Below are positions 5,854-25,411 of a stretch of DNA of 44,761 bases, piece after piece. The position numbers and the translations under genes are program-made. Each line of letters opens with the position of its first letter. The stretch's first letter is position 1. The stretch is from Sporichthyaceae bacterium (GTDB taxonomy: Bacteria; Actinomycetota; Actinomycetes; Sporichthyales; Sporichthyaceae). The notes beneath the pieces are model-generated. The model ran no database searches. It saw nothing but the letters and a program-made list of their open reading frames with translations, and was not told the origin of the DNA. The stretch is from assembly GCA_036493475.1 (NCBI GenBank), contig DASXPS010000197.1:1-44761 (forward strand). Direction: 5' to 3'.

Positions 5854-7110
5854 GTGACGGACATCAGCCGGGAGCGCCCGTACGACGAGATCGATCTGTC
5901 CAGCCGCAAGTTCTGGGCGCAGCCCGCCGCGGTGCGCGAGGAGAGCTTCGCGACGTTGCGCGAGCAGCGGCCGCTGAGCTGGCACCCGCCGGTAGAGGAT
6001 GCCCTGCTGGTGGACGAGGACGACCCCGGCTTCTGGACCGTGGTCCGGCACGCGGACATCGTGGAGGTCAGCCGTCGGCACGACGTGTTCGTGTCCGGTC
6101 AGGGCGTGATCTTCGAGAACGCGCCGGAGATGCTGTTGGAGACCTCCCAGTCGTTCCTGGCCACCGACCCGCCGCGGCACACCAAGCTGCGCAAGCTGGT
6201 CAGCGCCGCCTTTACGCCCCGTCAGATCTCCCGCATCTCCGAGCAGATCGAGGGCCGCGCGAAGCAGGCGGTGGCCCGGCTCGCGGCAGCGGGCAGCGGC
6301 GCCGACTTCGTGCGCGAATGCGCCGGGCCGCTGCCGCAGTGGGTGTTCTGCGACATGGTCGGCGTCGGCGAGCAGGAGCGCGAGGAGGTCGCCGAGGCGG
6401 CCGCCGCGCTGGTGTCCTGGGCGGACCCGATCTACCTGGGCGACCGCGACCCGCTCGACGTGATGTTCGAGGCGCAGCTGGTGTTGTTGCGCCACGCGTT
6501 GGCGTTGGCCGAGGACCGGCGCAGCAAGCCGACCGGTGACCTGATGAGCGCGCTGGTGGCCGCCGAGGTAGGCGGCGAGACCCTGCTGGACGAGGAGATC
6601 GGCGCATTCTTCACGCTGCTCTCGGTGGCCGCCAATGACACCACCCGGCAGACCATGAGTCACGCGGTGCACGCGCTGACCAAATACCCGGAACAGCGGG
6701 CCTGGCTGGCGGCCGACTTCGACGCGCGCATCGACCACGCCATCGAGGAGTTCGTGCGCTGGGCCACCCCGGTGATGACCTTCCGGCGCACCGCGGTGGC
6801 GGACGTCGAGGTGCACGGCATCACGGTGCACGAGGGCGAAAAGGTGGTGATGATGTACCCGTCCGGGAACTGGGACACCGACGTGTTCACCGACCCGGCG
6901 GCCTTCGACCTGTCCCGCCACCCGAACCCACACGTCTCCTTCGGCGGTGGCGGCGTGCACTTCTGCCTGGGCGCACAGTTGGCCCGCACCCAGCTTCGCG
7001 CGGTGTTCCGAGAGCTGTTCAGCCAACTCCCGGACCTTGCGGCAGGCGACCCCGATTACCTCACCGGCAACTTCATCCACGTGGTGCGCACGCTGCCGGT
7101 CACCTTCTGA
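5854..7110 (+). CDS. Cytochrome P450
   Basis: This is a soluble 418-residue P450 of the bacterial three-component class. Visible motifs are the helix-I AANDTT (259-264), helix-K ExxR (Glu299-Arg302), and the heme loop FGGGGVHFCLG with Cys371 as axial ligand. The ATDPPRHTKLRKLVSAAFTPR stretch is the conserved helix-C region. The general pattern is close to actinobacterial P450s that oxidise steroid or fatty side chains. The substrate cannot be read from the sequence. A GTG at 5854 is the first start consistent with the family; TAGCTT 7 nt before it could be a -10 for a leaderless transcript. No ferredoxin is adjacent. The downstream thiolase and nitroreductase are on the same strand. Confidence 0.9.
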   Translation: MTDISRERPYDEIDLSSRKFWAQPAAVREESFATLREQRPLSWHPPVEDALLVDEDDPGFWTVVRHADIVEVSRRHDVFVSGQGVIFENAPEMLLETSQSFLATDPPRHTKLRKLVSAAFTPRQISRISEQIEGRAKQAVARLAAAGSGADFVRECAGPLPQWVFCDMVGVGEQEREEVAEAAAALVSWADPIYLGDRDPLDVMFEAQLVLLRHALALAEDRRSKPTGDLMSALVAAEVGGETLLDEEIGAFFTLLSVAANDTTRQTMSHAVHALTKYPEQRAWLAADFDARIDHAIEEFVRWATPVMTFRRTAVADVEVHGITVHEGEKVVMMYPSGNWDTDVFTDPAAFDLSRHPNPHVSFGGGGVHFCLGAQLARTQLRAVFRELFSQLPDLAAGDPDYLTGNFIHVVRTLPVTF

Positions 7111-9547: not shown

Positions 9548-10333
9548 CTAGTTCCCGAACGAGCCGTGCCGGCCGGCGCCGCGGGCAAACTGCGCGGCGC
9601 CGCTTCGACTCTGCCCGGAGCGCAGCACCGCCAGACCGCCGATGGCCTCGTTGTCCAACGCCGCGGCGTAGTCCAGATTCGCTTGCGCATACGCGGAATC
9701 CCGGTCGGCGCGCGCACATTCCTGCGGGAACGCGGCGATCTCCCGGGCCAACTGCAGGGCGGCACCCAGCGTCTGCCCGCGGGGGACCACCCGGTCCACC
9801 AGCCCGATGCGCAACGCCTCCTGCGCGTCCACCGGGCGGCCGGTGAGGATCAGGTCCATCGCCCGGCCCTGCCCGATCAGCCGCGGTAGCCGCACCGTGC
9901 CGCCGTCGATCAACGGCACCCCCCACCGCCGGCAGAAGACCCCGAAGATGGCGTCCTCCGCGGCCACCCGTAGGTCGCACCAGATGGCCAGTTCCAGGCC
10001 ACCCGCGACCGCGTAGCCCTCGACCGCGGCGATCGTGGGCTTGCCGGGGATCTGTCGGCTCGGGCCCATCGGGCCGGGCTCGCCGGGGCCGAGGGCATCC
10101 AGCGCGCCGGGCTCGCCGCCGGTCTCGGCGAAGGACTGCAGGTCGTAGCCGGCACAGAAGCAGCCCTCCCGACCGGTGAACACCGCGGCGTGCACGGCGT
10201 CGTCGGCGTCGACGGCGGCGAACGCCTCGCGCAGCCCGGCCGCGGTGGCCGGGTCGACCGCGTTGCGACGCTCAGGTCGGTTGATCGCGACGACCGCGAC
10301 CGGGGGTGTGATCTCCAGCTGCACGGAATCCAT
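9548..10333 (-). CDS. Enoyl-CoA hydratase/isomerase (crotonase) family protein
   Basis: The 261-residue crotonase fold shows the oxyanion-hole segment [28 protein letters not shown], and [29 protein letters not shown]. In rat enoyl-CoA hydratase the two catalytic glutamates lie in the GGxELA and FGxPE motifs. Here the first Glu is kept, but the FGxPE segment reads FGVFCRRWG, so the second acid is missing. The protein may therefore be an isomerase, a dehydrating or decarboxylating crotonase, or hydrolase rather than a normal hydratase. The ATG at 10333 has GGGAGGG upstream. It is divergent from the acyl-CoA ligase with only 18 bp between start codons. Confidence 0.87.
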
Positions 10334-10351
10334 GGGAGTACCCTCCCGGGC
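10334..10351. promoter_or_regulatory. 18-bp divergent gap holding ribosome-binding sites for both genes
   Basis: The gap contains GGGAG (10334-10338) and its reverse complement CTCCC (10343-10347) around TACC. The symmetric element gives a good Shine-Dalgarno for the minus-strand crotonase and a weaker, more distant one for the GTG of the ligase. There is no room for two promoters, so transcription of each gene must start inside the coding region of the other. The element could also be read as a short operator. Confidence 0.5.
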
Positions 10352-11896
10352 GTGCGGGACTTCGGCGAGATCGTGCGCACCGCGGCCGCGCGGCACCCGG
10401 ACCGCGTCGCGGTCACCTGCCTGCGCGTCGACCAGAGCTACGCCGACCTGCACCACCGCGGCTGCCGGTTGGCGAACGCGCTCGCCGGGTTGGGCGTGCA
10501 ACGCGGCGACCGGGTGGCGCTGCTCGGGGTGAACTCAGCGTGGACCGTGGAGCAGGCCGCCGGGGTGGCCATGGGCGGGTACGTCCGCGCCGCGCTCTAC
10601 AGCCATCAGACCGCGGAGGTCAACGCCTACCTGGTGGACCTGGTCGACGCGGTGGCGCTGATCGTGCAGGCGCCGTACGCCGCGGAGCTGCTGGCCCGCC
10701 GGGCACAAATGCCGACGCTGCGTCACATCATCGTGTACGACGGCGAAGCGCCGCCCGGCGCGGTGGACTACGAGGAACTGCTGGCCAAGGCGGAGGACGC
10801 CGATCCGCTGGTGCGCACGCAGGCCGGCGACCCGCATGTGATCCGGTTCAGCGCGGGCACCACCGGGCGGCCCAAGGGTGTGTTGCACACCGTCGAGGCA
10901 TGGTTGCGCAGCGACGACGAGTACCGCTGGGTGACCCCGCAGTTGGACGAGAACGATGTGTACCTGGCGGTCGGTCAGCTCACCCATGCGGCGGCGGTGT
11001 TTCTGTGGCCAATGTTGCAGGTCGGCGCGCGCATCGTGGTGGTGCCCAGCTTCGATCCCGCGGCGGTGTTGGCCGACATCGAACTCCAGCGGGCCACGTT
11101 CACGCTGATGGTGCCCACCATGATCCAAGCGCTGGTGAACCACCCGGACGCGCGAACGCGCGACCTGTCCAGCCTGCGCTGCCTGAACTACGCGGCCGCG
11201 CCGATCTCCGGGGCCACGGTGGCCGCGGCGCTGGAGGTGTTCGGCCCGGTGTTGTATCAGATGTACGCGCAGTCCGAGGCCTGGCCGATCACCATGCTGC
11301 TGCCGCACCAGCACCGAGACCGGCCCACCTCGGTCGGCCGGGCCACCCCGAACAACGTGCTGTTCATCGTCGACGACGACGGCAATCCGGTGCCCGCCGG
11401 GAACGTCGGAGAGATCGCGGTGCGCGGCCCGGCGCGGATGTGGGAACTGTGGAAAGAAACCGACGCCACCGCCGCCCGCACCCTGCCCGACGGCAGTTGG
11501 CTGACCCGCGACGTGGGCCGGCTGGACGACGAGGGGTTCCTGTACCTGGTCGACCGCAAGGACGACCTGATCATCTCCGGCGGCTACAACATCTGGCCCG
11601 CCCAACTGGAGCAGGCCATCACTGCGCATCCGTTGGTCGCGGACGTTTGCGTGGTGGGCGCTCCGCACGAGCGGTGGGGAGAGACTCCGGTCGCGGTGGT
11701 GGTGCCGCTGGCCGGCGCCACCATCGATGCGCAGGAGATCATCGAGTTGTCCCGGGGCGCGGCCGGGTCGGTGCACAAGGTCACTGCGGTTGAGTTCGTC
11801 GAAGCGCTGCCCCGCTCCGGATTGGGCAAGGTGCTGCGCCGCGAGGTACGGGAACGGTTCTGGGCGGATCGGTCGGAGCGGCTGGGCGGCGTGTGA
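10352..11896 (+). CDS. AMP-dependent acyl-CoA synthetase/ligase
   Basis: The protein is 514 residues. It has the ANL-superfamily P-loop-like motif [16 protein letters not shown], the A5-type [12 protein letters not shown], the A7/A8 segment [41 protein letters not shown], and the catalytic lysine in [14 protein letters not shown]. It makes an acyl-AMP and then an acyl-CoA. The QSE in place of the usual YGxTE shows divergence in the adenylate/acyl pocket. Start is the GTG at 10352 ([21 protein letters not shown]), the standard N-terminus for the family. The downstream MDMPI/SCP2-type gene begins 10 bp after its stop. Substrate is not determinable; the context suggests aliphatic or alicyclic acids. 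Confidence 0.9.
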
Positions 11897-12734: not shown

Positions 12735-13970
12735 CTACCTGCCCGGAACTGCCCGCAGTACCGGGGTACCCACCCAATGGCACACCCGCAGTGCCAACTC
12801 GATGTCGTCGCGGTGCTCCTCCAAGGGCCGGCCCAACGCCTCCTCGGCGCGCTTGACCCGGTACTGGATGGTGTTCTTGTGCAGGTGCTGCTCGCGTGCG
12901 GTGCTGGTGAAGCTGCGGTTGCCCAGGAACAGCAACAAGGTCTCGCGCAGCCGCTCCATGCCGTCGTCGGCCGCGCCGAGCCCGCCGAGCGTGGCCTGCA
13001 CCCACACCGCGAGCTGAGTGCGGTCGGCGCACATCAACGCCACCGGCCCGACCGCCGACCAGGCGGTCACCGCACGCCGTCGATGCGCGTCGGCGAACTC
13101 GGCGACCCCGCGCGCGGCGATGGCCTGACGGTGTGTCAGGGCGAAGCCGTCCGGACCGGCCGCCGGGTCGCCCAGCGCCAGGCGCATTGAACTCTCGGTG
13201 CTGCACGGCCAGCTCGGCCGGACCAGGTTCCGCTGCGGGAACCAGACGGCCACGGTGTTCGCGTGCACCGGCACCACCAGCGCTGCGCGCGGTGCGCCCA
13301 GGTGCTCGGCCAGCCGGGTGACCTCCCGCTCCAACCCCGACGCGTCGATGAGCGCGCCGTCGTCGGACCAGAACACCCCGCCCACATGCGGTCCGTCCAG
13401 CGCGTAGCCGAGGATCCGCTCGGCCTCGGCCAGGTCCACCGGACCGCCGTCCAGCACGGCCACGATCTGCGCGGCTCGGGCTGCTGCCCGGTTCTGCACC
13501 CACACATCGCGTTCGGCCTGGTAGGCCTCCATGACGTCCTCGGAGGTGCGGTCCACGTACGCGAAGGTGACCTCGGACAGCAACGTCGCGGTGGCCGCGG
13601 CGCCGTCCGCGTCCGGAGCCAGCCGAGCGATCTCGGCCATCGCCAGCTGGTGGTACTGGGCCTGGCCGACCCGATAGGCGCGCAGCAGAACGGCCATCGG
13701 GATGTTGCGCCGGGCGAGTAGCCGCGCGTAGGTCAGGGCGCCACCGGGTGCCGGGGTATCGGCGGGCAGCGGACCGTCGCGCAGGGTGCCGGTGAGTTGG
13801 TCGACGTTCTCCGCCACGCTCAGGTAGAGCGCGTCGATGAGTTCGCTGTCCTCGGCCAGGGCCGGTTCCATGGCCAGGATGCGGTCGGTCAGTGCTTTGG
13901 ACACCGTCGCGGTATCCGGCACGAGCGTGGCGGCGATCGACGCCAACAGATCCGCCGGGCGAGAGTCCAC
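12735..13970 (-). CDS. PucR/CdaR-type transcriptional regulator
   Basis: The protein is 411 residues. The N-terminal ~170 residues are a helical RsbRD-like region. A GGDEF-like/CdaR central segment (about 170-320) follows. The C-terminus has the PucR helix-turn-helix (HTH_30): LLLFLGNRSFTSTAREQHLHKNTIQYRVKRAEEALGRPL. These regulators usually act on the neighbouring catabolic gene, here the divergent hydroxylase-reductase fusion 83 bp away. Start is a GTG at 13970 without a clear Shine-Dalgarno, so the exact start is less certain. Confidence 0.87.
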   Translation of the reverse strand: MDSRPADLLASIAATLVPDTATVSKALTDRILAMEPALAEDSELIDALYLSVAENVDQLTGTLRDGPLPADTPAPGGALTYARLLARRNIPMAVLLRAYRVGQAQYHQLAMAEIARLAPDADGAAATATLLSEVTFAYVDRTSEDVMEAYQAERDVWVQNRAAARAAQIVAVLDGGPVDLAEAERILGYALDGPHVGGVFWSDDGALIDASGLEREVTRLAEHLGAPRAALVVPVHANTVAVWFPQRNLVRPSWPCSTESSMRLALGDPAAGPDGFALTHRQAIAARGVAEFADAHRRRAVTAWSAVGPVALMCADRTQLAVWVQATLGGLGAADDGMERLRETLLLFLGNRSFTSTAREQHLHKNTIQYRVKRAEEALGRPLEEHRDDIELALRVCHWVGTPVLRAVPGR

Positions 13971-14053: not shown

Positions 14054-15898
14054 ATGACGATCACCGCGAATCCGTCCGTGCGCCAGGTGCTCGCACAGGT
14101 CACTCGCGACCCGCGGTACCCGCAGGTGGCTCGCAAACCGCTGCTGTCCTGGCCGCACATTGCGGTGGTGGTCGGTGCCTACAGCGCGTTCGGCCTGGCC
14201 ACCTGGGGCTACCTGACGGATCACCTTCCGTTTCTGGTGATGCTGGTGATCAACCAGGCGGCGATCTACGCCAGCTTCACCCCGTTGCACGACGCGGTGC
14301 ACAACTCGGCCTCGTCCAACCAGCGATTGAACGATCTGATCGGCACGGTGTCCGCGTTCCTGTTGCTGCCCGGCATCAGCACCACCGTCTACCGGATCCT
14401 GCACATGGAGCACCACCGGTGGGTCGGCGACAAGCGCAAGGACCCGGACCTGCTGCTGGTCGAGGCGCCGCGGCCGGTGCTGCCGTTCGTGCTGATGGGC
14501 CCGGAGTGGATCTGGACCTGGTTCTACTTCACCCGGCTGTGGCGCACGCGCCCCAAGCGGGAGATTGCCCTGTTCGTGTGGGCGCTGGTCGTCTACGTCG
14601 GCCTGCAGGCCGCCTTCCTGATCTCCCCGTACCGGATGGACTTCATCCTGGTCTGGCTGATCCCGCAGAAGCTGGGCATGTTGATCCTGGCCTACACGTT
14701 CGCGCACGTGCAGCACCCGCACGACTCCAACTGGCAGAACGCGCCGTTCCAGTCCACGGTGGTGCTGCGCGGCACCGCGGTGGGCAAGGTCTACTGGCTG
14801 GGCCAGACCGACCACTGCGTCCACCACGCCCTGCCGCACATCCCGTTCCACAAGTACCAGCGCGTGTGGGACCTCGGTGGCGGCGTGCTGCGCAACCAGG
14901 GCATCCCCGTCCGCGGGCTGTTCCGCGGGCCGACGGACCTCGGCTTCCCGCGCACACCGTATGCGACGGTGCGTCAGGTGCGGGTCGTTGAGGCCCGCGC
15001 CGTGGGCACCGGAGTGCGCACGTTCGTGTTCGAGGGCGTCGATGGCCCGTTGCCGCTGTTCACCCCCGGCTCGCACGTGGACGTGCACCTGCCCAGCGGC
15101 CGGGTGCGCCAGTACTCGCTGTGCAACGCCCCGGACAGCACCTACCGGATCGCGGTGAAGGTCGACCCGAACGGGCGTGGCGGGTCGTTGGAGGTACACG
15201 AGGCGCTGACCGTGGGCACCGAGCTGACCATCTCCGAACCCCGCAACAACTTCGAGCTGGCCGATGCCGGCCGCTACCTGCTGGTGGCCGGCGGCATCGG
15301 GGCCACCCCACTGCTGTCCATGGCCCACGACCTATACGCCGCGGGAGCGGAGTTCACCCTGCATGTGGTCGCCGGGGACGCGGCGAGCGTGCCGTTCGGC
15401 GACGAGCTCGCGAGTCTGCCGTTCGCCGACCGGGTGCGCGTGCACCTGGGCCGGGCGGACTTCGACCCGGCCACCGAGCTGGGCGGCTGGGGCGGCGGGG
15501 CCGAGCTGTATCTGTGCGGCCCGAACGGCTTCATGGACTGGGTGTCCGGGCAGGCCACCGCACAGGGCTGGCCGCTGGACACCGTGCACCGCGAGTCGTT
15601 CGCCGCGCCGGTGGTGGACACCACGCACAGCGAGCCGTTCGAGGTGGAGCTGGCTCGTACCGGCATCACGTTCACCGTGCCCGCGGACAAGCAGATCCTC
15701 GACGTGCTCGCGGAGCGCGAGGTCGAGGTGCCGTGGTCCTGCTCGCAGGGTGTGTGCGGCTCCTGCATCACCTCGGTGGTGTCCGGTGACATCGAGCACC
15801 GGGACGCGGTGCTCTCGGTGCAGGACCGGGCGGCGAACACCAAGATGGCGCTGTGTGTGTCGCGCGCCAAGTGCGGGACGATCGTGCTCGATCTCTGA
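14054..15898 (+). CDS. Membrane fatty-acid desaturase/hydroxylase fused to flavin-[2Fe-2S] reductase
   Basis: The 614-residue protein is one chain with two enzymes. Residues 30-295 form a membrane di-iron hydroxylase/desaturase domain with histidine boxes HDAVH (79-83), HMEHH (117-121) and HCVHH (254-258), plus HVQHPH (218-223). Residues 305-610 are a class IA-type oxygenase reductase: flavin motif RQYSLCN (352-358), nucleotide motif GGIGATPLLSM (413-423), CGP (488-490), and a C-terminal plant-type cluster with Cys563, Cys568, Cys571 and Cys601. In XylM/XylA or AlkB systems these are separate proteins. The fusion should carry electrons from NAD(P)H through flavin and [2Fe-2S] to the di-iron site with no extra partner. 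The ATG at 14054 has GAGGGG upstream. The substrate is unknown. Confidence 0.9.
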   Translation: MTITANPSVRQVLAQVTRDPRYPQVARKPLLSWPHIAVVVGAYSAFGLATWGYLTDHLPFLVMLVINQAAIYASFTPLHDAVHNSASSNQRLNDLIGTVSAFLLLPGISTTVYRILHMEHHRWVGDKRKDPDLLLVEAPRPVLPFVLMGPEWIWTWFYFTRLWRTRPKREIALFVWALVVYVGLQAAFLISPYRMDFILVWLIPQKLGMLILAYTFAHVQHPHDSNWQNAPFQSTVVLRGTAVGKVYWLGQTDHCVHHALPHIPFHKYQRVWDLGGGVLRNQGIPVRGLFRGPTDLGFPRTPYATVRQVRVVEARAVGTGVRTFVFEGVDGPLPLFTPGSHVDVHLPSGRVRQYSLCNAPDSTYRIAVKVDPNGRGGSLEVHEALTVGTELTISEPRNNFELADAGRYLLVAGGIGATPLLSMAHDLYAAGAEFTLHVVAGDAASVPFGDELASLPFADRVRVHLGRADFDPATELGGWGGGAELYLCGPNGFMDWVSGQATAQGWPLDTVHRESFAAPVVDTTHSEPFEVELARTGITFTVPADKQILDVLAEREVEVPWSCSQGVCGSCITSVVSGDIEHRDAVLSVQDRAANTKMALCVSRAKCGTIVLDL

Positions 15899-15905
15899 CG
15901 GCCAG

Positions 15906-16805
15906 TCACACCAGTGCAGCCCGGATCGCGGCGCTCACCGGACGCGCGTCGCGGTCGCGCAGCAGGATCAGGTAGTGGTTGGTGTCCGGCACTTCTTGCA
16001 CCACCAATTGGGGGGCCGCGGCGAGCGCCGCGTCCCGAATCGGCGCGGGCAGCAACGGCCGGTCCTCGTCCAGCAGACCGCGCGGCGCCCACAGCAACGT
16101 CGCCGGACACTTCAGGGCGGCCAACGAGCCCGCCGCGCTGTCGCCGTCCAACAAGTCCCGGCCGTCGGCCCGTACCGCCTCGCCGTTGACCCGGGAGCGG
16201 ATGACATCCGCGTTCGGGTCGAGGTCGTAGTCGACGTAATCACTGACGTCGTCGCTCCACTTGTCGGGCCCACCCAGCGCCGGGTGCGCCTGCCAGAACT
16301 CGTGGTAGGCCGCGCGCGATTCGAACGTCATGGACAGCCGAGCCAGCGCCGGCCCGAGGATCGCCGCGAGCAGGTCGTCGGCACTGATGCCCTCCGGGCG
16401 AGGGAGCGGCGGGCCGCCGTCCACCAGCACTGCGGCGCTGACCCGGTCCGGGGCCAGGGCCGCGAATCGGGTGGTGACGTACCCGCCCATGGAGTGCCCG
16501 GCCACCACCGCGTTCGGCACGTCGCAGAAATCCAACAGTGCCAACACATCCGCGGCGTGTGCGGCCATGCCGAACGGGCCGGTGATGCCCGAGGAGGCAC
16601 CGCGGCCGCGTAGGTCCGGGGCCAGCACGGTGACGTCCTCGCCGAGAGCCCGCACCACCGGGGCCCAGGAGCGGTGCGAGCCGGTGATGCCGTGCACGGC
16701 CACCACCACCGGGGCGCCCGCGCCGGGATCCGGTCCGGCCACGCCGACGTGCAGGGTGCCGCCGGCAACTCCGACATCGAGGGTGCGGTGGAACGGATGC
16801 GACAT
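15906..16805 (-). CDS. Alpha/beta hydrolase
   Basis: The protein is 299 residues with the canonical fold. VVAVHGITGSHRSW holds the oxyanion HG motif. VVAGHSMGGY is the nucleophile elbow with the catalytic serine. APDLRGRGAS is the conserved strand-4 region. PATLLWAPRGLLDEDRP carries the likely acidic residue, and EVPDTNHYLILL the catalytic histidine. ATG 16805 is preceded by CGGAG. It lies 17 bp downstream of the TetR gene, so the two form an operon. An esterase or lactonase supplying acids to the divergent acyl-CoA operon is plausible but not shown. Confidence 0.86.
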   Translation of the reverse strand: MSHPFHRTLDVGVAGGTLHVGVAGPDPGAGAPVVVAVHGITGSHRSWAPVVRALGEDVTVLAPDLRGRGASSGITGPFGMAAHAADVLALLDFCDVPNAVVAGHSMGGYVTTRFAALAPDRVSAAVLVDGGPPLPRPEGISADDLLAAILGPALARLSMTFESRAAYHEFWQAHPALGGPDKWSDDVSDYVDYDLDPNADVIRSRVNGEAVRADGRDLLDGDSAAGSLAALKCPATLLWAPRGLLDEDRPLLPAPIRDAALAAAPQLVVQEVPDTNHYLILLRDRDARPVSAAIRAALV

Positions 16806-16822
16806 CGGCGTCTCCGTATGGG

Positions 16823-17419
16823 TCAGGGCCTGAGGCCGGCGGTCAAAGATGCGGCGATCTGCTCGCCCAGTTGCTCCGGGGTGGCGGGGCCGCTGGGCCG
16901 GTACCACTTGTAAGTCCAGTTGATCGCACCCAGTCCGGCGTTCACCCAGATCTTCGGCTCGACGCCGCCGAGTGCATCGGGGTGCTCCGCGAGATGCGCT
17001 CGCACGGTCTGGATGAACAGATCCTCGAACATCCTGCGCCGGGACAGCAGCGCGGGCTGCAGATCAACGGGCAACTCGTGCTCCTCCTCGAAGCAGACCT
17101 TGAGCAGCGCGGCGTTGCGGCAGGTGTAGACCACCCGCGCGGCGATCAAATCGCGGATCGCGCTCAGTGGGTCCGGTGCGGCGGCGATGACCCGGCGGGC
17201 GCCGTCCAGGCTCTCGTCCAGCACCGCGGCATAGATGTGGACGAGCAGTTTCTCCTTGCTCCCGAAGTAGTGGTACAGGGTCGGCTTGGACAGTCCGACC
17301 GCGCCCGCGATCTCGTTCATCGAGGTGGCCCGGAAGCCCTGCCTGCTGAACATGTCGATGGCCACGTCCACGATCCGCGCGCGCTGCGCGTCCGCCCGTG
17401 CCGTCGCAGTCCCGGTCAT
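16823..17419 (-). CDS. TetR/AcrR-family transcriptional regulator
   Basis: The protein is 198 residues. The N-terminal helix-turn-helix is ARIVDVAIDMFSRQGFRATSMNEIAGAVGLSKPTLYHYFGSKEKLLVHIY. The C-terminal ligand domain ends with WVNAGLGAINWTYKWYRPSG. ATG 17419 follows GAGGGGTGGGG; an alternative in-frame ATG at 17440 would lie inside a probable operator and is rejected. It is divergent from the branched-chain-type acyl-CoA operon, in the same relation as Mycobacterium Rv2506 to its leucine-catabolism genes, so an acyl-CoA-responsive repressor of that operon is the best inference. Confidence 0.88.
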   Translation of the reverse strand: MTGTATARADAQRARIVDVAIDMFSRQGFRATSMNEIAGAVGLSKPTLYHYFGSKEKLLVHIYAAVLDESLDGARRVIAAAPDPLSAIRDLIAARVVYTCRNAALLKVCFEEEHELPVDLQPALLSRRRMFEDLFIQTVRAHLAEHPDALGGVEPKIWVNAGLGAINWTYKWYRPSGPATPEQLGEQIAASLTAGLRP

Positions 17420-21524: not shown

Positions 21525-23242
21525 GGCTGACCGACGAGCCCGGCCGACCGCTGCGCTCGGTGCTGGTCGCCAACCGCGGCGAGATCGCGGTGCGCATCCT
21601 GCGGGCCGCCGCGGATGCCGGGATGCGCGGCGTGGCCATCCACACCCCGCCCGATGCCGGCGCCCTGCACGTGCGCCGCGCCGTGGAGTCGGTCGCGATC
21701 GAGGACTACCTGGACATCGACGCGGTGGTCGACTCCGCGCTGCGGGCCGGCGTCGAGGCAGTGCACCCCGGCTACGGCTTTCTCGCCGAGAACGCCGAGG
21801 CCGCCGCCGCGGTGACCGCCGCGGGTTTGGTGTGGATCGGCCCCCCGGCGCCGGTGATTGCCGCTCTGGGCGACAAACTGACGGCCCGTCGGATCGCCCG
21901 GTCCGTCGGGGCGCCGCTCACCGCGGGCACCGATGCCATTGACGACATCGCTGCGGTGGAAAACTTCGTCGCCGAGCACGGGCTGCCCGTGCTGCTGAAA
22001 GCCGCGTTCGGCGGCGGCGGGCGCGGGATGCGCGTGGTGCGCGAGGCGGCCGCTATTTCGGAGGCGTTCGCCGCGGCGAGCCGGGAGGCGGCAGCCGCGT
22101 TCGGTCGCGGCACCGTCTACGTGGAGCGACTGCTGGAGGGTGCCCGGCACGTCGAGGTGCAGGTGCTCGCCGACGACCACGGCACCGTGCTGGTCATCGG
22201 CCTGCGGGACTGCTCGGTGCAGCGGCGCAACCAGAAACTGGTCGAAGAAGCACCGGCCCCGTCGTTGCCGGACGGCGTTCGGGATCGCCTGGTCTCCTCC
22301 GCGCGGGCCATCTGTGTGGCCGCGGGCTACCGCGGTGCGGGCACGGTGGAGTACCTGGTCGGCCCCCACGGTGAGGTGTCCTTCCTCGAGGTGAACACCC
22401 GGCTGCAGGTGGAGCACCCGGTCACCGAGGAGACCACCGGCGTGGACCTGGTCGCCGAGCAGTTCCGGATCGCCGCGGGTGCCCGGTTGGTGTCGGCGCA
22501 GGACCCGGTCTCGCACGGCCACGCCATCGAGTTCCGCCTGGTCGCGGAGGACCCGCATGCCGGCTTCGTCCCCGCCCCCGGCACGGTCACCGCGCTGCGG
22601 TTGCCCAGCGGTCCGGGGGTGCGCTGGGACGGGGGAGTGGAGGCCGGGGACACGGTCGAGGGCCGCTACGACTCCATGTTCGGCAAGCTGATCGTGTCCG
22701 GTCCGGACCGGCCGAGCGCGCTGCGCCGGGCCCGTCGGGCGCTGGCCGAGTTCGAGGTGGCGGGGGTGCCCACGCCGATCGCCTTCTACCGCTGGCTACT
22801 GGACCACCCGGGTTTCGCCGGCCCGGACTTCGCGGTGCACAACCGCTGGGTCGAGGCGGTCATTGCCGACCTGCCCAAACCCGAGGTCCCGCTCGATCGC
22901 ATCGTCGTCCGCGTCGGCCGGCGCAGCATGCCGGTCGACCTGCCCGGTCTGGCCACCCTCGGCGAGCGTGCCGCCGAGGTCGCGGCCACCCTGCGCGGGG
23001 CCGGTGACGCCGGCCCCGCCGATTCGTTGGTGCTGGCCCCGATGCAGGGCACCATCGTCAGCGTCGCGGTCAAGGAGGGTGACGTCGTCGCCCCGGGCGA
23101 CCTGATCGCGGTGCTCGAAGCGATGAAGATGCAGAACCCGGTCACCGCGGCCGTGGCGGGGACCATCACCGACCTCCGCGTCAGCGTCGGCGACACTGTC
23201 ACTCACCGCCAACACCTGTGCGAAGTCCTCGAGCAGGTCTAG
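21521..23242 (+). CDS. Acyl-CoA carboxylase alpha subunit (biotin carboxylase + biotin carrier)
   Basis: The protein is 573 residues. Biotin carboxylase spans about 8-450: VLVANRGEIAVRILRAA, ATP-grasp glycine loop AAFGGGGRGMRVV, and EVNTRLQVEHPVTEETTGVDL. The C-terminal biotinyl domain carries the biotin lysine Lys536 in EAMKM. The linker is short (about 50 residues), so the BT domain of methylcrotonyl-type alpha subunits (~650 residues) is missing; length is closer to AccA2/AccA3 types. It works with the beta subunit at 18733-20244. Its TAG stop is part of CTAG, which is also the stop of the convergent TetR gene. Confidence 0.9.
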   Translation: MRLTDEPGRPLRSVLVANRGEIAVRILRAAADAGMRGVAIHTPPDAGALHVRRAVESVAIEDYLDIDAVVDSALRAGVEAVHPGYGFLAENAEAAAAVTAAGLVWIGPPAPVIAALGDKLTARRIARSVGAPLTAGTDAIDDIAAVENFVAEHGLPVLLKAAFGGGGRGMRVVREAAAISEAFAAASREAAAAFGRGTVYVERLLEGARHVEVQVLADDHGTVLVIGLRDCSVQRRNQKLVEEAPAPSLPDGVRDRLVSSARAICVAAGYRGAGTVEYLVGPHGEVSFLEVNTRLQVEHPVTEETTGVDLVAEQFRIAAGARLVSAQDPVSHGHAIEFRLVAEDPHAGFVPAPGTVTALRLPSGPGVRWDGGVEAGDTVEGRYDSMFGKLIVSGPDRPSALRRARRALAEFEVAGVPTPIAFYRWLLDHPGFAGPDFAVHNRWVEAVIADLPKPEVPLDRIVVRVGRRSMPVDLPGLATLGERAAEVAATLRGAGDAGPADSLVLAPMQGTIVSVAVKEGDVVAPGDLIAVLEAMKMQNPVTAAVAGTITDLRVSVGDTVTHRQHLCEVLEQV

Positions 23243-23835
23243 CCCAGGGCCGCCTCGATCAGCCAGCCGACGTCGGCGGCGGTCTGCTCCGGGGTGCCGC
23301 TCGGCTGCATCATGTGACTGAGCGTCAGGCGGACCAGGTTCTCGATGATCATGGCCAGCCGGTCGGCGGTAACCGGGATGGGGTAGCCGTGCTCGGTGAT
23401 CACCGTGCCGAGGAAGCCGGTGGCGTTGGCGATGAGGTCGGCGGAGTCGGTGGTGAGCAGGGGGAGCAGGTCGCTGCCGCCGGTGTGCGCCGATTCGAAA
23501 ATGGCGTGCACCAACGGGTTGGCCACCGAGGTCTCCAACGCGCCGCGGCAGGCGGCCTGCAGCGCCGGGCCGAGCTCGGATTGCGCGGTCATCCGGTCGC
23601 GCACGATCTCCAGGAACCGGGCCAGCTCGCGGTCCACCAGCGCCTGGGCGATCTGTGGCTTGGAGCCGAGTTCGTTGTAGACGGTCTGCCGGCTGACCCC
23701 GACCACCTCGGCGATCTTCGCCATGGTGACCGCGGTCCATCCGGACTCGGTGGTGATCGCCGCGGCCGCGTCCAGCAACCGCTCGTGCAGCAGCGTCGCC
23801 ACGGTTTGGTGGAAGTCCGGTTGCGCGGCGGTCAT
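23239..23835 (-). CDS. TetR-family regulator of the alkB operon (AlkU/AlkX-like)
   Basis: The protein is 198 residues. The helix-turn-helix is [51 protein letters not shown]. The C-terminal domain is helical. A TetR gene directly after the two rubredoxin genes is the well-known layout of actinobacterial alkB clusters (Rhodococcus alkB1/alkB2), where the regulator responds to alkane metabolites. ATG 23835 overlaps the second rubredoxin stop (ATGA). The probable operator is the inverted repeat upstream of alkB. Confidence 0.88.
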
Positions 23836-24005
23836 GCCGGGGTGACCTCGACCATCGCGAAGTCGGCCTTCGCGGCGCCGCAGTCCGGGCAGGACCAGTC
23901 GTCGGAGAGGTCCTCCCAACGGGTGCCCGGCGCGATGCCCTCCTCGGGCCAGCCCTCGGCCTCGTCGTACTCGAACCCGCACACCGCGCAACGCCAGATC
24001 TTCAC
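23832..24005 (-). CDS. rubA2: Rubredoxin, AlkG2-type
   Basis: The 57-residue protein has two knuckles, CAVCG (Cys6, Cys9) and CPDCG (Cys39, Cys42), which bind one iron. [20 protein letters not shown] is the standard rubredoxin core. The second knuckle is followed by AAKADF with no inserted Arg, as in AlkG2-type rubredoxins that pass electrons to AlkB. The GTG start overlaps the stop of the first rubredoxin (GTGA). The rubredoxin reductase gene normally needed is not in the window. Confidence 0.92.
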
Positions 24006-24166
24006 GAGCCGACCTCCTGGAAGTCCTGTGCCTCGCGCACGCCGCAGTCGGGGCAGCACCAGTCGGGATCGATCGCGCTCAGCGGCGTCCCCGGCTTCCA
24101 GCCCTCCCGGACAGCGCCTTTCTCCTCGTCGTAGACGTAACCACATCCGGGGCAGCGGAACTTCAT
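24002..24166 (-). CDS. rubA1: Rubredoxin, AlkG1-type
   Basis: The 54-residue protein has CPGCG (Cys5, Cys8) and CPDCG (Cys38, Cys41). An Arg follows the second CxxCG (CGVREAQDF), the feature reported for AlkG1-type rubredoxins, which did not replace AlkG2 types in electron transfer to AlkB. The ATG overlaps the alkB stop (ATGA). Having one of each type is usual in actinobacterial alkB operons. Confidence 0.92.
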
Positions 24167-25350
24167 CCGATGCTCGCTGCGGCCGTCGTGGCGTAGCGGC
24201 GCAGCAGCTGCTCGCGCTTGCGTGGCTGCAGGTTCGCCAGCGTGACGTCGCCGTTGTAGTGGGCCAGCACCCGGTGGTCCATCACCCGGCGCCACAAGGG
24301 CGGGACGGTGGCCAGCAGGATCATCCCGGCGTACCCGGTGGGTAGCACCGGGGCGGACTCGAAGTCGCGCAGTGCCTGATAGCGCCGGGTCGGGTTGGCG
24401 TGGTGATCACTGTGCCGCTGCAGGTGGTAGAGCAGCACGTTCGTGCCGATGTTGTTCGAGTTCCACGAGTGCCGCGGCGCCACCCGCTCGTAGCGGCCGG
24501 AGGCGGTGCGCCCGCGCAGCATGCCGTAATGCTCGAGATAGTTGACGACCTCCAACAGCCAGAAGCCGAACACGGCCTGCGCCAGCAGGTAAGGCAGGAT
24601 CCCCGGCCCGAAGGCAACCGTGACGCCGACCCAGAGCACCAGCGACATGGCCCAGGCGTTGAGCACGTCGTTGGTGGGGGAGAACGTGCGCTGCCGGCAG
24701 CGAGCCAACCGCTCGCGCTCCAGGTGCCACGCGCTGCGCACGCCGCCGGCCACGCTCCGCGGCAGGAACGCCCACAGGCTCTCGCCCAACCGCGAGCTGG
24801 CCGGGTCCTCGGGCGTCGCCACCCGCACGTGGTGCCCGCGGTTGTGCTCGATGAAGAAGTGGCCGTACCAGCTCTGGGCGAGGGCGACGCGGGCATACCA
24901 GCGCTCGTGCTCCTCCTTCTTGTGCCCGAGTTCGTGCGCGGTGTTGATGGCAACGCCACCGACCACACCGAGGCTGGACGCGATGCCGATCTTGTCGACC
25001 ACGGACAACGAGCCGCGGCTCAGCATCCAGGCGCCCCAGACGAACACGGCGACCTGGAACGGCAGATAGAGGTAGGTCAGCCAGCGGTAGTAGCGATCCG
25101 CCTCCAGCGACGGGACCATCTCCTCCGGTGGGTTGTTCGGATCGGTCGGCACGATGACATCGGCCAGCGGCACCACGACGAACAGGAACAACGGCCCGGA
25201 GAACCAGAACACGCTCCACCCGGTGGCGGCGACCAGCCCCCAACCGAGCAGCGGCAGGCCGGGGATCAACGCCCCGAGCAGCCACAGGTACCGCTTGCCG
25301 TCCCGCCACGCCAGGCTCGCGTTCGGCGCGGGGATTGTCGTTGCACTCAC
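24163..25350 (-). CDS. alkB: Alkane 1-monooxygenase
   Basis: The 395-residue integral membrane di-iron enzyme hydroxylates n-alkanes at the terminal carbon. Histidine boxes are HELGH (139-143), EHNRGHH (168-174) and LQRHSDHH (310-317), with the AlkB signature NYLEHYG (270-276). About six TM helices precede and follow the boxes. The GTG at 25350 is chosen because AAGGGAG lies 6-7 bp upstream and it gives the usual N-terminus. It heads a four-gene operon alkB-rubA1-rubA2-tetR in which every junction is a 4-nt overlap. Electrons come from rubredoxin. Confidence 0.95.
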
Positions 25351-25370
25351 CGCAGGCTCCCTTCTGGTCG

Positions 25371-25411
25371 ACTTGACACAAAAGTACAAGATGTCAAGTA
25401 ACTTTACAAGA
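25371..25411. promoter_or_regulatory. Inverted and direct repeats between alkB and the divergent ACAD operon
   Basis: ACTTGACA (25371-25378) and TGTCAAGT (25392-25399) form a perfect 8-bp inverted repeat with a 13-bp spacer. Each arm contains TTGACA, a consensus -35, one on each strand. TACAAGA occurs twice, at 25385-25391 and 25405-25411, 20 bp apart. The stretch is much more AT-rich than its surroundings. It is the likely binding site for the alkB-operon TetR and may control both directions. Confidence 0.65.

Follow-up and report, generated by a model that had tools for sequence, protein, structure and literature searches.

A single reading frame in the stretch of DNA analysed here (the window, 44,761 nucleotides) encodes a 614-residue protein in which a membrane di-iron oxygenase domain is followed by a complete reductase of the phthalate-dioxygenase-reductase (PDR) class, and this fusion is conserved in genomes of two phyla. 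We hold with moderate confidence that the protein is a self-sufficient membrane di-iron monooxygenase, which would likely hydroxylate hydrophobic alkyl or isoprenoid substrates at the terminal methyl group. The original prediction, made from the letters of the DNA, was of a one-chain membrane di-iron enzyme with a built-in NAD(P)H reductase, in which three histidine boxes are followed in the same frame by flavin, nucleotide and [2Fe-2S] domains. Pfam, motifs and a match to the PDR structure 2pia bear this out, and the frame begins and ends exactly where it had been placed (Table 1).

The gene is one open reading frame on the forward strand, from an ATG at 14054 to a stop codon ending at 15898, without an internal stop, and the protein start MTITANPSVRQVL is the same in the family homologues. 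Pfam together with phmmer searches against the PDB gives the domain order oxygenase, flavin, NAD, [2Fe-2S]. A frameshift near residue 300 had been named in advance as a possible source of a false fusion; no break was found there. Third-position GC lies between 0.86 and 1.0 along the entire gene and is continuous across the junction, and over residues 271-330 two close homologues differ mainly at third codon positions, as in the rest of the gene. Moreover, the same full-length frame is present in 14 gene copies from 11 genomes. Conservation of the frame in distant genomes and the continuous junction statistics for practical purposes exclude that an assembly or sequencing artefact joined two genes; we found no point in favour of such an artefact and regard its probability as negligible.

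Table 1. Features of the fused gene and of its surroundings in the window
Feature	Position	Strand	Basis
Fused gene: membrane di-iron oxygenase domain and PDR-type reductase, 614 aa	14054..15898	+	Frame, Pfam, PDB phmmer, conserved start
Di-iron membrane domain, residues 1-300, FA_desaturase fold, AlkB-like	14054..14953	+	Pfam; model pLDDT 90.8; AlkB Z 15.6
His box 1, H79-DAV-H83	14288..14302	+	His invariant in 46 sequences
His box 2, H117-ME-H120-H121	14402..14416	+	Invariant His
H221, ninth invariant histidine	14714..14716	+	46-sequence alignment
His box 3, H254-CV-H257-H258	14813..14827	+	Invariant His
Flavin-binding domain, about residues 304-400 (RQYS, GRGGS)	14963..15253	+	PDB match, motifs, structural alignment
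NAD(P)H-binding domain, about residues 401-518 (GGIGATP, CGP)	15254..15607	+	PDB match, motifs, structural alignment
C-terminal [2Fe-2S] plant-type ferredoxin domain, about residues 527-614 (C563, C568, C571, C601)	15632..15895	+	Pfam Fer2; motif
Divergent PucR-type regulator	12735..13970	-	Pfam HTH_30
Context: cytochrome P450 near CYP268A2 and CYP124 (methyl-branched lipid omega-hydroxylases)	5854..7110	+	PDB 6bld, E 2.8e-175
Context: AMP-forming acyl-CoA ligase (true start inside frame)	10190..11896	+	Annotation
Context: convergent alpha/beta hydrolase	15906..16907	-	Annotation
Context: TetR regulator, completes alkB-rubA-rubB-tetR cluster	23239..23835	-	Sequence
Context: rubredoxin 2	23832..24005	-	Sequence
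Context: rubredoxin 1, downstream of alkB	24002..24166	-	Sequence
Context: canonical AlkB alkane 1-monooxygenase	24163..25389	-	PDB 8f6t, E 3e-140; AlkB motifs

The N-terminal half has the features of a class III membrane di-iron oxygenase (FA_desaturase superfamily): three histidine boxes, a Pfam FA_desaturase match over residues 60-286 (E 3.6e-23), a fold match to AlkB and a weaker one to SCD1. Nine histidines (79, 83, 117, 120, 121, 221, 254, 257 and 258) are invariant across 46 fused and unfused relatives. The predicted model of residues 1-300 (pLDDT 90.8) aligned with the AlkB structures 8f6t and 8sbb at Z about 15.5 (best Z 15.6, rmsd 4.2, 260 residues aligned) and with SCD1 at Z about 7; the best matches, above AlkB, were 8xks_K and 8xqw_M, subunits of chloroplast FtsHi motor complexes (Z 20.4 and 19.4), and the top four matches stood well above unrelated entries. 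Membership in AlkB itself was rejected, although the fold is common to both: the AlkB motifs HELGHK, EHxxGHH and NYxEHYG, which the AlkB at 24163-25389 does contain, are absent from the fused protein, BLASTP of the di-iron half against that AlkB gave a best E of 0.47 with no detectable sequence similarity, and PDB sequence searches with the fused protein returned no AlkB match. A profile search of the PDB with the di-iron half found no sequence match. By the ligand set, a hydroxylase and a desaturase of this class cannot be told apart.

The reductase half is, judged by its sequence, of the PDR type, as in the CYP116B P450s. Residues 322-614 align end to end with phthalate dioxygenase reductase 2pia (phmmer against the PDB, E 6.4e-60), structural alignment of 2pia with this half gave Z 28.7 at 38-39% identity, and the reductase parts of the CYP116B P450s 6laa and 6kbh were matched as well. 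Both the order of flavin, NAD and C-terminal [2Fe-2S] domains and the four-cysteine motif C563-x4-C568-x2-C571-x29-C601 are those of the PDR class. Pfam Fer2 covers residues 533-606 (E 6.3e-13); the middle of the protein lies below the Pfam cut-offs for FAD_binding_6 and NAD_binding_1 and carries the motifs RQYS (residue 352), GRGGS (374), GGIGATP (413) and CGP (488). In a tree of C-terminal halves, the fused reductases group with stand-alone PDRs, apart from PaaE-type reductases (100/100). The further claim, that the pair of domains equals XylM and XylA or their relatives, is not supported. XylA carries its [2Fe-2S] ferredoxin domain at the N-terminus, ahead of the FAD and NAD domains; set against this generally known order, a XylA-type reductase was rejected, the ferredoxin domain of the fused protein lying after the NAD domain.

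The same domain order was sought in other genomes, as had been proposed together with the original prediction, and was found. All five genomes examined of the window's family, from two genera, encode the full-length fused protein (6 copies, 61-65% identity), as do 6/7 genomes of one Pseudomonadota order (8 copies, about 40% identity over the full length). Outside the family, no fusion was found among 394 genomes of the window's class and, outside the order, none among 289 genomes of the same Pseudomonadota class. In 396 genomes sampled from the window's phylum, a profile of the di-iron half identified no additional fused member. A pattern-based scan of genome contigs with the whole protein yielded only loci that contain a PDR but no fused di-iron domain, and none of 1362 matches in plasmid records covered 80% of the fused-protein query. 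The tested PDR-type fusions, six from the window's family and L094 from the Pseudomonadota order, form one clade in the tree of di-iron halves (96/96) and one clade inside the PDRs in the tree of reductase halves (96/90), with the caution that L094 is placed on a long branch. Being a single clade in both trees, they point to a single fusion, with later inheritance or transfer of the gene.

A second fusion joins a related di-iron domain to a different, PaaE-like reductase. It is present in 24 copies in 301 genomes of the family of Nocardia rhizosphaerihabitans, the species of the genome behind L084 (loci L093, L103-L115, L117, L118 and L121-L128). In the tree these reductases cluster with a stand-alone reductase of the window's own genome, apart from all PDRs, and the di-iron half, too, has stand-alone relatives. 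The simplest reading would be that one di-iron group was fused independently at least twice. That two reductase classes have been joined, apparently separately, to the same di-iron group suggests that selection favours the fusion. We found no description of the PaaE-type family in the open-licence literature searched.

Genes related to the divergent pucR of the window adjoin the fusion in two sister genomes and adjoin PaaE-type fusions as well. In two sister genomes the fusion adjoins menaquinone-reductase-like and nuo genes. Within the Pseudomonadota order, one paralogue lies beside genes for a CYP153A terminal alkane hydroxylase (PDB 7ant, E 3e-206; also 3rwl, CYP153A7), a choline-dehydrogenase-like GMC oxidoreductase, an MMPL transporter and a DUF1329 protein, and in one locus an aldehyde dehydrogenase gene abuts it; the other paralogue follows a tetR gene. 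One PaaE-type fusion is followed by genes for an acyltransferase, an acyl-CoA ligase, a GMC oxidoreductase and an aldehyde dehydrogenase, with a pucR gene nearby. The CYP153, GMC alcohol dehydrogenase, aldehyde dehydrogenase and acyl-CoA ligase neighbours, joined in the window by a complete alkB-rubredoxin cluster, suggest an NAD(P)H-driven self-sufficient hydroxylase that would act on alkyl or isoprenoid substrates.

A complete canonical alkB-rubredoxin-rubredoxin-tetR cluster (23239-25389, -) lies 8 kb from the fusion. Of the five family genomes, all encode the fusion but a single one was found to have AlkB, and the AlkB neighbourhood is therefore not a conserved link. Between 16871 and 23242 (+), genes for an acyl-CoA dehydrogenase, a carboxyltransferase, a MaoC protein, an HpcH/HpaI lyase and a biotin carboxylase stand in series in what looks like a leucine/isovalerate (methylcrotonyl-CoA) degradation cluster. 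In the small Pseudomonadota order, a cluster encoding CYP153A, GMC oxidoreductase, MMPL, DUF1329 and YCF48-like proteins recurs beside the fusion (L135, L155-L158).

In the proposed mechanism, NAD(P)H would reduce the flavin of the C-terminal half, probably FMN as in PDR, from which electrons would pass singly to the C-terminal [2Fe-2S] cluster. This cluster would dock to the membrane domain from the cytoplasmic side and reduce the nine-histidine di-iron centre, which would then activate O2 and hydroxylate a C-H bond, most likely at the terminal methyl group of an alkyl or isoprenoid substrate. The product may feed successive alcohol, aldehyde, acid and acyl-CoA steps. The monooxygenase reading is based on the nine invariant histidines, the AlkB-like fold, the full collinear PDR module, the conserved fusion and the catabolic neighbours, on the AlkB, two rubredoxins, CYP124-like P450 and acyl-CoA ligase encoded in the window, and on the published precedent of an active AlkB-ferredoxin-reductase fusion. 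The unconserved AlkB linkage, the menaquinone-reductase-like and nuo neighbours in two sister genomes, the identity of the nearest named profile, CrtR, though matched far below its cut-off, and a ligand set that desaturases share count against it.

Alternatively, the same electron chain could serve a self-sufficient desaturase that dehydrogenates a fatty acyl or lipid chain and so adjusts the lipids of the membrane. The Pfam family is FA_desaturase, 8xks_K and 8xqw_M outscore AlkB as fold matches, and every family genome has the gene, as expected of a housekeeping lipid gene. However, the fold is common to hydroxylases and desaturases, and the patchy wider distribution (one family, one order), the duplication, the adjoining pucR and the alcohol and aldehyde dehydrogenase neighbours in a distant order fit catabolism better, so that we consider a desaturase unlikely. 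A CrtR-like carotenoid or terpenoid ring hydroxylase with its own reductase seems to us quite improbable: CrtR (NF045688) is the sole named oxygenase profile of this fold that all 28 fused proteins scanned matched, and it is the nearest one to the di-iron half (E 2.1e-26), but the window's protein reaches 92.7 bits against a membership cut-off of 475, CrtR has no fused reductase, and no carotenoid gene was recognised among the Pfam-annotated neighbours.

It is also conceivable that the reductase half mainly serves other oxygenases, the fusion being a mere membrane anchor, given that PDR-type modules serve many oxygenases and that the same genome has further reductases of this kind. Against this, all nine di-iron histidines are invariant, which argues that the oxygenase half is under selection, and the joining of one di-iron group to two different reductase classes, apparently in independent events, speaks for electron transfer within the molecule; we judge an anchor role to be very improbable.

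The self-sufficient membrane di-iron design is already known from fused AlkB, from which the present case differs in the oxygenase lineage, the reductase class and the domain order. XylM and XylA, a membrane di-iron oxygenase and an NADH reductase that together would resemble the fused protein in function, are two proteins rather than one chain. A three-domain alkane monooxygenase, ferr_ferrR_AlkB, was reportedly described by Nie in 2014 and by Williams in 2021/2022. It likewise carries a membrane di-iron oxygenase, a ferredoxin and a ferredoxin reductase on one polypeptide, but its electron-transfer domains are N-terminal and its oxygenase is AlkB, whereas the window's protein has PDR-type domains at the C-terminus and an oxygenase that by sequence is not AlkB. 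Passages in the literature describe such a ferredoxin-ferredoxin reductase-AlkB fusion as active (PMC8918992) and cite it as needing only NADH (PMC12903215); an AlkB with an N-terminal oxidoreductase domain, borne on an ICE, is another fusion of the AlkB kind (PMC12903215). In the open-licence papers searched we found no prior description of the architecture reported here, and of the novelty implied by the original prediction the particular fusion stands, the one-chain idea having been anticipated by the AlkB fusion. A better P450 parallel than P450-BM3, to which the original prediction likened the protein, is CYP116B (type IV self-sufficient P450s), in which the oxygenase also comes first and the same PDR-type module is C-terminal, but the oxygenase is a soluble haem P450 instead of a membrane di-iron domain. 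As for the separate parts, 2pia is a stand-alone enzyme for a separate Rieske oxygenase, and AlkB uses rubredoxin.

A 2022 review (PMC8918992), with reference to Sperling and Heinz 2001, restates in one passage that fusions of a desaturase to a ferredoxin had not been found. The fusion reported here and its PaaE-type counterpart both belong to the desaturase superfamily and carry a fused ferredoxin-reductase. Use and study of membrane di-iron oxygenases are hampered by electron partners that are separate and in many cases unknown, and a one-chain form that occurs in nature and is not of the AlkB lineage would offer a ready enzyme for tests of di-iron electron transfer and for biocatalysis. We tentatively suggest that these proteins, with their C-terminal PDR module, may constitute a family of self-sufficient membrane di-iron hydroxylases distinct from AlkB and hitherto undescribed, accompanied by an independently evolved PaaE-type sister, and that both could open new catabolic routes for hydrocarbons or isoprenoids.
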